From Bradyrhizobium sp. JYMT SZCCT0428 (GTDB lineage: Bacteria; Pseudomonadota; Alphaproteobacteria; Rhizobiales; Xanthobacteraceae), in NCBI RefSeq assembly GCF_018131075.1, contig NZ_JAFCLS010000003.1:124001-188000 (forward strand): a stretch of 64,000 nucleotides of DNA, read 5' to 3'. The notes under the pieces are model-generated. The model was not told the DNA's origin and made no database searches. It was given only the letters and a program-made list of their open reading frames with translations. The position numbers and the translations under genes were made by a program. Below are positions 30,255 to 46,385 of the stretch, one piece after another. Position 1 is the first letter of the stretch. Every line of letters begins with the position of its first letter.

Positions 30255-30328
30255 CAGCCTTCGCTCCCTTCGCTACGATGGACTGTCCGGGCCTGCCCAG
30301 CCGAAGCTCGCGAAGCGAGCGAAGGCTG
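30255..30328. repeat. Palindrome next to the left island border
   Basis: CAGCCTTCGCTC (30255-30266) is mirrored by GAGCGAAGGCTG (30317-30328). It is a long imperfect stem that ends exactly where the tRNA-Ala 3' copy begins, consistent with a dispersed palindrome that originally stood directly behind the tRNA gene. Confidence 0.7.
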
Positions 30329-30343
30329 GTGGAGCCAGGCGGG
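30327..30343. repeat. Left attachment-site copy of the tRNA-Ala 3' end (attL)
   Basis: TGGTGGAGCCAGGCGGG is identical to 46310-46326, the last 17 bases of the tRNA-Ala gene (CCA end to the T-stem) in the same orientation. The surrounding sequence differs, and no other part of a tRNA is present here. This is the direct repeat expected when an element integrates at the 3' end of a tRNA. Confidence 0.8.
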
Positions 30344-30800
30344 TGATCTCCGGGCTCCATGTTTCACCATAAAAATCAGCGTTTTATCGAGCCGTGTCAG
30401 CGCATGATGTAGCACGGTTGTGTAGCAGAGTAAAAAATGTTGAGCAGGGGGAAGTCATCCCTCCAAAATCCCACCAATTTCGACCGCCATAAGGCGACGT
30501 CTCAACGCCAATTGCTTATCAACTCCCAAATTCATCAAGTTTCAGCATCGTAATCGATTGAGCTGCGCCACGAGGGAAAAGGGTGCTCGGCCCAGGAGGT
30601 TGATCGGTCAACAGCGCCTACATCAAGGTGATTTCGTCCTGGCTGCCTTAATCTCAGGTGGGCTGTAGGTGTGGGTGGCAGAACCGATCGCGAACTGCCG
30701 CCGCCTGAATTTGCCTGGCAGAGGTGTGCAATTTTGGCAACGTTAGTGCCACGCCTCCGTGTCCATTACACCGGGCTCGCGACTTGAGAACCGGGGCGGC
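30344..30800. other. Left end of the island, no clear gene
   Basis: About 450 bp inside attL. No reading frame with family character is visible. It holds a copy of the 85-bp repeat found again at 31925-32010 (here 30600-30685) and TTGTGTAGCA at 30418, a ten-base match (TTGTGTARCA) to 46223-46232 near the integrase, possibly an integrase arm site. Confidence 0.5.
30600..30685. repeat. Diverged 85-bp repeat, copy 1
   Basis: Shares CAACAGCGCCTACA, then CTGGCTGCCTTA-like sequence and GGTGGGCTGTAGG with 31925-32010 (CAACAGCGCCTACA ... GGGCGCCTTATTTC ... GGGCTGTAGGG). The two lie beside members of the small secreted-protein cluster, so a unit of gene plus spacer was probably duplicated. Confidence 0.6.
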
Positions 30801-31391
30801 CTACGGCTTGGCCCGGTAGTTAGGGCAATATCTATGTAACACCTCGTCCCCGGTGATTTTGCTCTCAAACAGCTGCGTACACGTTGGCGCAAAGCCACTT
30901 GCCCCCCACCAACTCGCGTGCCTTGCCCCCAGCCATATGTAGGCCCGGGACAGCGTGAGCTGTTCTTCCTTGGTCAGCTCGGTCGGGATGCGCTTGCCCG
31001 ACACCTTGCAGGCCGTCAGTAACATCTCGATCGCAGCGCAGTCACGTTGGGTGTAGGGCTCGGTATCCGGGATCGCGACCTGCGTCTTGGGCCGGTAGCC
31101 CGGGCAGTATTTATTGAGCGCATCCTGCTGGGTGACTTTGCCGTCACAGACCTGGCCCCGCAGCTCGTCGAACGCTTCTTCGGTAGGGCTAAAGCCAGTT
31201 TTGGTTTTGTATTTTGCACTCAGCGCCCATTTTCTATGATTTTTGCGTATCTCATCGAACCGACGAGCCCCGGATGCCGAGGATGGACCACACTCAAATT
31301 CCCCGGCGAGCGTTTCGCACTCACGTGCCGTGTAAGTTTCGGCAACAGCCGGGGTGACGAGCAGCCACAGGATCAAAGCAATGCGATACAT
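30801..31391 (-). CDS. Secreted Cys-motif protein with an internal duplication
   Basis: A 196-residue secreted protein. The signal peptide is MYRIALILWLLVTPAVA; the mature part contains two halves of the same unit. The first half has YTARECETLAGEFEC... and ends VCDGKVTQQDALNKYCPGYRPK; the second has YTQRDCAAIEMLLTAC... and ends LFESKITGDEVLHRYCPNYRAKP. Each unit has Cys near its start and a terminal (K/R)YCPxY motif. Smaller relatives follow at 31531-31902 and 32136-32438, forming a tandem family in the island. The start at 31391 is chosen for the signal peptide. The function is unknown; periplasmic or secreted location is inferred. Confidence 0.8.
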   Translation of the reverse strand: MYRIALILWLLVTPAVAETYTARECETLAGEFECGPSSASGARRFDEIRKNHRKWALSAKYKTKTGFSPTEEAFDELRGQVCDGKVTQQDALNKYCPGYRPKTQVAIPDTEPYTQRDCAAIEMLLTACKVSGKRIPTELTKEEQLTLSRAYIWLGARHASWWGASGFAPTCTQLFESKITGDEVLHRYCPNYRAKP

Positions 31392-31530
31392 GGAAAGACC
31401 CCATCTAAATGAATGAACTAATGGAAGAAGATTAGCGCCTGGGCGCCGTGAGTAAAGGAGCCGCACCGAGGCAGCGCAGGCGGGTAGACCGCAAGCACCG
31501 ACGAGCTAGAAATCGTCTCCAAAATTTCTG

Positions 31531-44105: not shown

Positions 44106-44456
44106 TTTGGTGCCTCACTCTGCGACCCATCGAAGTCGATCGGTCCGCAGGTCGCAGGGGGGCGGACGATGACGTTGTCACCGTTCCCATCAATGCCCTC
44201 CTTGGCTCCGGGAAATTTCAGCTATGAGCTGAACAATGAAGGTCAGAATAAAAAGGGGTGGAAGTATGACGGGAGTATTTGTGCGGAGTGGACCATCGGC
44301 AATATTGCCGATCTCCAGAACTTGTGCTCGCGCACTCTCACCGAACGTGGGCGAGAGACGTCCCATCGAGGCGATTAATGGTAAGCCACACGGCGTGGTC
44401 GGGACCGGCCAGGGTATCTGGTGGCGTCCGAAGCAAGTGCACGCCATTGACTATCG
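44106..44456. other. Intergenic stretch between two island genes
   Basis: About 350 bp downstream of the integrase and upstream of the 43665-44105 gene. It must hold the promoter of that gene. Short overlapping frames are present but none has family character or a good ribosome site that would justify calling a gene. Confidence 0.45.
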
Positions 44457-46208
44457 TCAGCCCTTCCACTGAAGATGGTGCAGATCGAGGCCAGGAAAAT
44501 CAACGAGCTGCATGTACTTGATCTGGTAATCAGGATCGGATTTGTCGCCGTAATTGTCACTTACCAGTTTGCCTTGGCTCCATCCGCCCAGGGCCTGGAG
44601 TGCGTCAGGGGGAGCGCTGGTCCGGCGAAGGGCATCCCTGAAATTATGCCGGAAACTGTAGAAGCTCTGTCGGGCTTCGAGTTGGATCGACTTCGGCAAA
44701 TACTGTTCCCGAAAACGCTTGAGAGGATACGTCGCATGGTTGCCGTAACCATCTGGCTTTAAGCCGCCGAAAAGCTGGACCGACGCCCCTGTTTTGCGGC
44801 GGATCGCGACGAATTCCAGAAAGCCGATTGAAATCAGCTGGGGATGCACCGGAATTTTCCGCTTACTGCTCCAGGTTTTGACGGTTTTCTTGGGCTTAGC
44901 CCCCAGGTCGGCGTCATCCTCATCGCTGGAAGCGACGATATCGAGGTACACGGTCCCTTTGATGGTTTGTTTGACGTCGCCAACGCTCATCTGACAGGCC
45001 TCGTTTGGGCGCATGCCCATGAACAAGCACAAGAGAGGTAGCCAGAACCTCCAGCCGGTCTTGTCGTGACCGAACGGCGGCGAATGTAACGCACACGTTT
45101 GGTAGAACGTCCCGCCGAAGAATTGCTTGAGCTGTTCAGCCGCAAAGGGACGGCGCTTCGCGCTGGCCTCCATGGCTTCACGCCTAACCGGCTTCATACC
45201 CTGAGCCGGATTGGCCCCGATCAGCCGCTTCTTCCAGGCGAGGTCGAGAATTCCTTCGAGGGTAGTGAGGTAGATTTCCTGCGTCCCGGACGACAGCTTG
45301 GGCTTTCCAGCCTTTTCGCCCTTGTCGATGGCCTCACTGATGGTCGAACCTTTGTAAAGTTTGGAACGGTTGGCGGGAAGGCGCGATAAGACTGTTCGCA
45401 CCTTCAGGCAGACGTCGTAATCAACATTTTGAATGGGCACGGCGTTGCCGATGATCTCACGCAGCAGGGTGACGTTGGCGCGCTGTTTATCGACCCATTT
45501 TTCGCTGGTCTGGTTAGCCCCCGCGTCTTCTTCTATGACAGCAAGGAACTGGTCGGCCAGTTCGCCGAATGAAATTGGCGGAGGGAGGTTAGGATCAAAC
45601 AGGTGGTCGAAGAAGAGGCGTCCATGATCGTCGCTAATCCGCGCCAACCTACGCTGCTGAAGCTCTAGCAAGCCACGACGAGCAAGCTCGGCTAAGGCAG
45701 CATGGGGCAACGAGGCCTCGTCCACCGGACGCCCAGCATCCGCCAGTATGCGCGTCATGGCCGCGTAGACCCATTCGTCAGCCCTTGGGTCGTCGCGGTT
45801 CTTGAGGATGCTTAAGCCGTACCCAACGTCCGCCTCGATCTTTTGTTGGTCACTGCCGCTCCCAGGAGGGTCCTCAGTGAGTTGACGCCGTGACCGTGCA
45901 TCCATCTGTCGGACATATTCCTGCACATGCTGGACGGCCTCCCGCTCCGTAAGAGGGGTCCCCGCCGCAGGGATGACCAACCCCCCGGTCCCCTTTGCCG
46001 CGACCTTATGCTTTTCCTCGGCGGCCTCGAACTGCGCGGCTGTTTTGAGGTCTTCGAGCGCACGCCGCTTCTTGGCTTCCTTGAGATCAGTGGTTCCCAA
46101 CGAAAACTGTATGGTTTTTTTGCCGATCAACGGGATCAGCGCGGTCGGGACACGACGTCGGTAATTCCAAACGCCTTCTCGCTTGAACAGATGATAGGTG
46201 GACGACAT
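44457..46208 (-). CDS. Island integrase (large tyrosine recombinase)
   Basis: A 583-residue integrase starting at ATG 46208, chosen because AAAGGA lies nine bases before it. The N-terminus (MSSTYHLFKREGVWNYRRRVPTALIPLIGKKTIQFSLGTTDLKEAKKR) is the arm-binding region of the large alphaproteobacterial integrases. Catalytic positions: R in FMGMRPNEACQM, K in SSKRKIPVHPQL, the box II segment FYSFRHNFRDALRR (Tyr where many members have His before SFR), the GGWSQ segment and Y in VSDNYGDK. It sits less than 100 bp from the tRNA-Ala 3' end, the classical position for the integrase of an element inserted in that tRNA. Confidence 0.93.
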   Translation of the reverse strand: MSSTYHLFKREGVWNYRRRVPTALIPLIGKKTIQFSLGTTDLKEAKKRRALEDLKTAAQFEAAEEKHKVAAKGTGGLVIPAAGTPLTEREAVQHVQEYVRQMDARSRRQLTEDPPGSGSDQQKIEADVGYGLSILKNRDDPRADEWVYAAMTRILADAGRPVDEASLPHAALAELARRGLLELQQRRLARISDDHGRLFFDHLFDPNLPPPISFGELADQFLAVIEEDAGANQTSEKWVDKQRANVTLLREIIGNAVPIQNVDYDVCLKVRTVLSRLPANRSKLYKGSTISEAIDKGEKAGKPKLSSGTQEIYLTTLEGILDLAWKKRLIGANPAQGMKPVRREAMEASAKRRPFAAEQLKQFFGGTFYQTCALHSPPFGHDKTGWRFWLPLLCLFMGMRPNEACQMSVGDVKQTIKGTVYLDIVASSDEDDADLGAKPKKTVKTWSSKRKIPVHPQLISIGFLEFVAIRRKTGASVQLFGGLKPDGYGNHATYPLKRFREQYLPKSIQLEARQSFYSFRHNFRDALRRTSAPPDALQALGGWSQGKLVSDNYGDKSDPDYQIKYMQLVDFPGLDLHHLQWKG

Positions 46209-46309
46209 CGCCTTCATTCCTTTTGTGTAACATCGATGTGCGACACAGGGGAGATGCTAAGGCGTTGATCTACAATGAACTTAAATTTCCCAGGCAGTTG
46301 CGAGAAATT

Positions 46310-46385
46310 TGGTGGAGCCAGGCGGGATCGAACCGCCGACCTCTTGCATGCCATGCAAGCGCTCTCCCAGCTGAGCTATGGCCCC
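46310..46385 (-). tRNA. tRNA-Ala(GGC), island integration site
   Basis: A 76-nt cloverleaf on the minus strand: acceptor GGGGCCA with TGGCTCC, discriminator A, encoded CCA; D-arm GCTCAGCTGGGAGAGC; anticodon arm CTTGC-ATGGCAT-GCAAG with anticodon GGC; T-loop TTCGATC. The 3' 17 bases are duplicated at 30327-30343. Integration has kept the gene intact. Confidence 0.97.

Follow-up and report, generated by a model that had tools for sequence, protein, structure and literature searches.

The window analysed here is a stretch of 64,000 nucleotides from Bradyrhizobium sp. JYMT SZCCT0428, and it contains an island of about 16 kb beside the gene for tRNA-Ala(GGC). The tRNA gene was located by ARAGORN at 46310-46385 on the minus strand and encodes its own CCA end. 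The gene for a 586-aa tyrosine integrase (44457-46217, minus strand; DUF6538 and Phage_integrase domains) begins 93 bp from the 3' end of the tRNA, and the last 17 bp of the tRNA gene, CCA included (46310-46326, plus strand), recur identically at 30327-30343 on the plus strand. Between the two copies lie a restriction-modification gene, a PIN-domain gene with its partner, a sulfatase with its maturase, and a gene, here called X, followed by a second tyrosine recombinase gene, rec2. To the left of the island are a MarR-type regulator (29448-29909, plus strand; family name assigned by eye), a GIY-YIG protein (29917-30153, minus strand; Pfam) and a palindromic repeat (30223-30326). To the right are a FYDLN_acid protein (46451-46909, minus strand; Pfam), named TIGR02300-type in an earlier, sequence-only reading of this DNA, and aroA, encoding EPSP synthase (46964-48367, plus strand; Pfam). 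Genomes and loci are referred to by working labels beginning with G and L, respectively.

Attachment at tRNA-Ala(GGC)

The 17-mer TGGTGGAGCCAGGCGGG occurs as two exact copies in the window, starting at 30327 and 46310, with no further site at up to two mismatches and 0.04 expected. The copies are 15,983 bp apart. The sequence-only reading had proposed on the basis of this repeat that an island of that length was integrated in tRNA-Ala(GGC), and both the repeat and the insertion were confirmed. In all 24 same-genus genomes compared, the left flank and the tRNA-Ala/FYDLN side were present on one contig without the island, separated by a gap of 0-555 bp in match coordinates, as that reading had predicted for genomes lacking the insert. 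A virtual empty site, made by joining the flanks at 30326/46310, was then aligned to the loci of 23 congeners (G009 was absent from the loci). A single alignment crossed the junction with at least 32 bp on the left in 16 of these genomes, and in the other 7 the alignment began 5-7 bp to the left of the junction. The tRNA-Ala gene was identical at 76 of 76 positions in all 38 congener loci aligned (23 genomes). The locus has the features of a tRNA-integrated island, namely a border repeat of the tRNA 3' end, an intact tRNA gene, an empty site in relatives and an adjoining integrase. The G+C content per kb ranged from 0.55 to 0.62 in the island and from 0.59 to 0.68 in the flanks, so that the ranges overlap.

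The flanking genes named in the sequence-only reading were found on both sides, with one correction. The GIY-YIG gene was matched in some congeners and not in all, and the constant left neighbour is the MarR-type gene instead. The palindrome stops at 30326, directly before the far 17-bp copy, and in the 23 congeners read by eye one of two kinds of palindrome always abuts the CCA end of tRNA-Ala.

The palindrome is dispersed. It measures about 108 bp including the first 4 bases of the tRNA, and it ends at the CCA end of tRNA genes. Twenty copies were fetched from 15 genomes, own genome included (L148-L167), and for 15 of them the adjoining sequence is a called tRNA gene (Tyr, Val, Met, Ala and one odd call). 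Three copies (L151 of G010, L163 of G020 and L167 of G002) run, by eye, into sequence that resembles a tRNA 3' end but is not part of a complete tRNA gene, and two (L148, L153) run into unrecognised sequence. The former three are possibly the far ends of other tRNA islands, and a palindrome followed by a tRNA fragment might serve as a quick sign of tRNA-island borders. The passages on repetitive extragenic palindromic elements of Bradyrhizobium in PMC5082802 and PMC3733652 make no mention of palindromes abutting tRNA ends.

In the own genome the exact 17-mer occurs three times, in the two island copies and in a tRNA-Ala(CGC) gene (G000:C99:67158), and one further tRNA-like place carries it with one mismatch (G000:C13:93499). 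Judged by this shared attachment sequence, such places could be further targets for the integrase.

Integrase relatives and candidate arm sites

The integrase was matched in 34 of 265 genus genomes (own genome included) at 1e-20. It is foreign to the genus, because the best-scoring other relative there is only 33% identical. Relatives at E values of 1e-60 or lower are rare: 5 of the 396 other order genomes carry one, and a contig of a metagenome-assembled genome (L080) added a relative with 48% identity. All six of these close relatives lie directly behind the 3' end of a tRNA gene, which is Ala(CGC) in three, Ala(GGC) in two and Leu(CAA) in one. Short flanks of 16 distant genus relatives (L051-L066) contained a tRNA gene in eight cases (Ser in two, Arg in two and Glu in four). 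No relatives of the integrase were found in plasmids at 1e-30 or in the viral contigs scanned.

A far copy of the tRNA end, 17-19 bp long, was found at 17.0, 25.3, 28.2 and 16.4 kb in L086, L088, L089 and L090, respectively. No far copy was found in L080 and L087, which are cut by contig ends, or in L091, which was followed for about 10 kb only. Two further elements, found by way of gene X in G108 (tRNA-Ser) and G850 (tRNA-Glu), have 17-bp copies at 23.4 and 21.2 kb. This gives seven complete elements including that of the window, each ending in a 17-19-bp copy of the tRNA end 16-28 kb away.

Two of the elements, L088 (G477) and L089 (G435), come from one genus and allow a closer comparison. 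They are 88% identical over 3.55 kb starting just behind the integrase, and share a second stretch of 1.47 kb at 94.6% identity; in G477 this stretch ends near the far copy, whereas in G435 about 2.4 kb separate the two. Their integrases are only 52% identical over 471 aligned residues, and the targets are tRNA-Leu in G477 and tRNA-Ala in G435. The G477 integrase lies in two frames. We infer from this pattern of identities that the integrase, together with its target preference, was exchanged between these elements while parts of the interior were kept.

The motif TTGTGTARCA near both ends of the island had been suggested by the sequence-only reading as an integrase arm site. It is exact at 30418 and 46223, with no other site at one mismatch or fewer in the window. 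At that stringency 1.9 matches are expected by chance, and at least two were obtained in 52 of 100 shuffles, so the motif taken from the window alone was rejected as significant. The suggestion gained ground when positions were compared across the related elements.

On the tRNA side, tandem repeats with a period of 13 bp lie at about +64 and +77 from the tRNA end. In the window the proposed sites occupy 46221-46246 on the minus strand (units 46234-46246 and 46221-46233), and the two units agree at 7 of 10 positions; the corresponding values are 8 in L087, 10 in L089, 9 in L090 and 8 in L091. In L080, L086 and L088 no such pair scored best on the tRNA side. Among 1,766 control windows, 269 had a pair with at least 7 of 10 and 47 had one with at least 8 of 10. 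The proposed far-side sites of the window occupy 30404-30429 on the minus strand (units 30417-30429 and 30404-30416), again with a 13-bp period and with 8 of 10 positions alike. The best far-side match to the tRNA-side repeats reached 10 of 10 in L086 and L088, 9 in the window and L089, and 8 in L090; of 120 control windows, 0 were as good in L086 and 1 in L088. A pooled weight matrix ranked the far site first in L086 and third in L090 among all positions. With ties allowed, the best far-side match starts 84 bp before the copy in all five elements, and only 4 of 20,000 random draws placed all five starts within 4 bp. In G108 a far-side match of 10 of 10 lies about 90 bp ahead of the copy; in G850 the far side has a tandem pair with a 13-bp period, of which one unit is near -83.

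Several results speak against these arm sites. Similarity alone was not significant in the window, L089 and L090, where 27, 31 and 119 of the 120 control windows, respectively, were as good. The reverse strand of the far end scored 9 in L086, 10 in L088, 9 in the window, 8 in L089 and 9 in L090; it equals the forward strand in the window and L088 and exceeds it in L090. In the window, L088 and L089 the pooled matrix picked other positions or ranked the far site poorly. The position test was designed after the offsets had been noticed, the far site of G108 is shifted by about 6 bp, and the far site of G850 shares no more than 8 of 10 positions with the tRNA-side repeats of that element. The proposed arm sites are supported mainly by their position, and the paired repeats are read as predicted binding sites of the lambda arm type.

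Cargo and the X-rec2 pair

Pfam was searched with 17 open reading frames (ORFs) of the island and PHROGs with 10. Behind the integrase lies a gene for a 146-aa protein (43665-44105, minus strand) with a weak DnaD-like or replication initiation match (E 8e-6, PHROGs) and no Pfam match. It is followed, on the same strand, by a member of the formylglycine-generating enzyme family, a sulfatase maturase (41509-42495; E 9e-86, Pfam), a sulfatase (39769-41418; E 4e-49, Pfam) and a 173-aa ion-channel-domain protein (39198-39719; Ion_trans_2, E 8e-12). The sulfatase and its maturase are thus side by side between the integrase and X (39769-42495). The sulfatase contains a CTAGR motif, which we take to mark the Cys type; three relatives with 45-60% identity occur elsewhere in the own genome, and 11 of 24 other genomes contain relatives at 1e-60. 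On the far side of X and rec2, the PIN-domain gene (36351-36851, plus strand; Pfam E 3e-9) adjoins its 251-aa partner (35595-36350, plus strand; phrog_19868, unknown). The restriction-modification gene is of the MmeI-like type IIL and has the MmeI N, hel, Mtase, TRD and C domains, all present and in order. It is split into two minus-strand ORFs overlapping by 22 bp (34109-34130). The first (34109-35431) encodes the N-terminal part into the methylase domain, the second (32580-34130) the rest of the methylase, the TRD and the C-terminal part, and the methylase is divided at profile positions 84/85. The genome is a draft of 180 contigs, and the frame shift could be an assembly error. A 221-aa protein (30801-31466, minus strand) has no family match in Pfam or PHROGs. 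No relaxase, secretion or phage structural family was found among the 17 ORFs scanned with Pfam, to which smaller and antisense ORFs did not belong, or among the 10 with PHROGs. The cargo, consisting of type IIL restriction-modification, a PIN pair and a sulfatase with its maturase, is ordinary in kind; less so is the conserved pair of X and rec2.

Gene X (37886-39037, minus strand) encodes 383 aa and overlaps with its end the start of rec2 (36898-37932, minus strand; 344 aa). By profile, X matches the C-terminal domain of RarA/MgsA (8g28, E 6e-7); the Pfam family MgsA_C stayed below cut-off in the X of the window and was matched in 3 of 7 X members. The fold agrees, with a best Foldseek E value of 0.02 (none at 0.001), a probability of 1.00 and a TM score to the target of 0.74, for a model with a pLDDT (predicted local distance difference test) of 82. 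X thus has this domain in common with RarA/MgsA by sequence profile and by fold, but lacks their AAA+ ATPase domain. For rec2 the best structural neighbours are Cre structures (Foldseek E 5e-11; mean pLDDT of the model 69.5), at an identity of 21-23%. rec2 has the fold of Cre/Xer recombinases and, in alignment, their Arg, HxxR, H and Tyr residues, which we take to be catalytic.

Counting the own genome each time, 8 of 397 order genomes contain X at 1e-12 and 7 of 257 genus genomes at 1e-15; the 385 genomes drawn from the class added 7 more at 1e-13 or better, with two matches in G930. Nine class genomes with E values of 1e-8 to 1e-10, matching profile positions of about 34-157 in frames of 435-487 aa, were taken as RarA and dropped. 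No relatives of X were found in plasmids and phages. rec2 follows directly after X in 20 of the 23 X loci, which lie beside several integrase types; other integrase kinds occur 4-8 kb from the pair in G962, G1011 and G639. The three loci without rec2 are G487 (partial X), G653 (contig end) and the second, broken X of G229. G230, with X in pieces, and G229, with a rec2 frame cut short, were counted as pairs. Five complete elements had been reached by way of the integrase; four of them have the pair, and L090 (G556) lacks it. No lox-like inverted repeats common to the loci were found near the pair. In G291, a protein with a reverse transcriptase domain is encoded about 2 kb upstream of the pair (L109, 6525-8033). 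No description of the pair was found in the literature searched.

The genes downstream of the pair were examined for a link to restriction-modification. The methylase family N6_Mtase (PF02384) was matched 17 times in 13 of the pair-bearing genomes and 6 times in the remaining six, where two matches are fragments of a single place in G230. Of these 23 matches, six lie within 2.2 kb downstream of rec2 on the same strand (G591, G291, G507, G108, G850 and G1011); the match is the only one of the genome in the first four and one of two in the last two. The number expected by chance was estimated at 0.01 (20 pairs x 2.2 kb over about 103 Mb), ignoring the clustering of defence genes in islands. With the MmeI-like gene of the window, 1.5 kb downstream of rec2, a restriction-modification methylase is present within 2.2 kb in 7 of 20 pairs; the idea that the pair always precedes such genes was dropped on this count. 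A PIN-TPR-GreABC match lies near the pair in G639; in G962 there is a candidate defence protein (PDC-S06), and in G930 an exonuclease and a weak match to PDC-S11. Against such a link, only weak matches (in G477) or non-defence families were obtained for the one or two downstream ORFs scanned in each of G477, G435, G799 and G655. The family-library scan covered downstream genes of pairs other than those of G229, G156, G078, G230 and G055.

A relative of this part of the island is in the congener G055, with identities to the window of 72% for X, 86% for rec2, 90% for the PIN protein and 93% for its partner. In G055 three remnants of a rec2 3' end follow the intact rec2 at +2.3, +4.8 and +9.2 kb; they share its direction and are separated by other ORFs. 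X and rec2 of the window match the intact pair of G055 at 78%, and a stretch that begins 188 bp ahead of the rec2 stop and reaches 1.4 kb past it matches the block of the second remnant at 85.6% over 1,584 bp. In the window the PIN pair follows the intact rec2 at a distance of 46 bp, whereas in G055 it follows the second remnant, which suggests that modules behind rec2 were added or replaced, with junctions in or near rec2. A clear-cut mosaic is opposed by the last 180 bp of the gene, in which the identity of the window per 60 bp is 0.77-0.82 to the intact rec2 of G055 and 0.59-0.80 to the second remnant, so that the intact gene is equally close or closer. The remnant homology begins, by eye, about 190-270 bp before the rec2 stop and is too decayed to fix a breakpoint. 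No convincing copies of a rec2 3' end were found in the other 19 pair loci, in a search for which the rec2 ends were set about 110 bp (G229) and 18 bp (G156) past the stop. We take the pair to work within the element, either on its cargo or on multimers, and not in tRNA targeting. From the arrangement of these sequences it may be a cargo-handling module that adds or replaces defence modules, uses the rec2 3' end as a docking site and builds rows like those of a coarse integron, but we regard this proposal as doubtful.

Nature of the island and its relation to known elements

The island is very probably an integrative element of 15,983 bp that was inserted by its integrase at the 3' end of tRNA-Ala(GGC). 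A circular form would have recombined through its attP with the 3' end of the tRNA gene inside the 17-bp identity block. The element would thereby have supplied a replacement 3' end, which left a restored and intact tRNA gene beside the integrase, and the native 17 bp, as the native half of the target site, would have been pushed to 30327. The two copies, the empty site, the intact tRNA gene and the like layout of six other complete elements with related integrases are evident at the level of sequence comparison. The integrase probably relies on 13-bp arm sites arranged in pairs to either side of the core, and excision would give a circle of 15,983 bp. Transfer between cells would need outside help, because no relaxase or phage structural gene was seen. 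Two points count against the proposed insertion by the integrase: eight of the 16 distant genus relatives of the integrase had no tRNA gene in the stretch fetched, and no excisionase was identified in the island.

It is somewhat unlikely that the island is an immobile relic, an old integration that can no longer excise and whose cargo is decaying. The two frames of the MmeI-like gene at 34109-34130, the lack of any family match for the ORFs scanned at 31.5-32.4 and 42.6-43.5 kb, and the split integrase of the related G477 element agree with such a state. However, the reading frames of the integrase, rec2 and X are open, neither attachment copy has a mismatch, and the frame shift in the MmeI-like gene may stem from the draft assembly.

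We consider it improbable that the X-rec2 pair is the excision partner of the integrase, that is, its directionality system. X is present in 3 of 5 other integrase-bearing genomes of the order, always in the same element, versus 4 of 391 others, if the same sample of 397 genomes is assumed. Yet the pair is also found near other integrase kinds (G962, G1011, G639), no tyrosine integrase was found among the few ORFs scanned near it in G799 and G655, and G556 has the integrase and attachment copies with no X in the loci searched. A defective prophage or phage satellite is very unlikely: attachment at a tRNA gene and a phage-type integrase would fit, but no capsid, tail, terminase, lysis or other structural or packaging family was found in the ORFs scanned with Pfam and PHROGs, and the integrase has no relative in the viral contigs scanned. 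The possibility that the 17-bp copy arose by chance or by an old duplication unrelated to integration, for which the same 17 bp at another tRNA-Ala could be cited, is practically negligible, being refuted by the empty site in all 24 congeners and by the position of the palindrome, which abuts the tRNA in congeners and sits at the far copy in the window.

The island was compared with known systems. ICEMlSymR7A, a tRNA-targeted element with the tyrosine integrase IntS, resembles it in that the integrase gene lies directly beside the attL end and short repeated arm motifs flank the core (PMC11963761). According to the same source, ICEMlSymR7A has five arm sites with the consensus TGKTGGTATC, a 283-bp attP and conjugation genes. 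The island, in contrast, has paired 13-bp repeats, whose motif is another one and changes from integrase to integrase. Conjugation genes were not seen; among the 17 ORFs scanned with Pfam there is neither the relaxase nor the type IV secretion system of an integrative and conjugative element. GInts are likewise genomic islands with more than one tyrosine recombinase and variable cargo, and are defined by a ginABCD operon encoding three integrases and a small helix-loop-helix protein (PMC5385486). The island differs in having one tRNA integrase and a separate interior X-rec2 pair. Membership in the GInts was rejected, as the two tyrosine recombinases are 6.5 kb apart and form no ginABCD operon. 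The restriction-modification gene shares all five Pfam domains of the type IIL MmeI family in the same order, but is split into two overlapping frames where that family has a single one. Phase-variable type I restriction loci also have a tyrosine recombinase beside restriction-modification genes (PMC7096588, PMC6265443), whereas rec2 is paired with X and adjoins type I, type IIL and other cargo alike.

The island is textbook in kind, but as a variant it merits description on account of its X-rec2 pair and exchangeable integrase. It gives a base-exact attP model for the DUF6538 integrase group, which was not found named by domain in the literature searched. Within this group the arm-like sites vary with the integrase, and the tRNA target differs between elements with near-identical interior stretches. 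If the X-rec2 pair is indeed a device for cargo exchange, it would help to explain how defence modules are assembled in islands.

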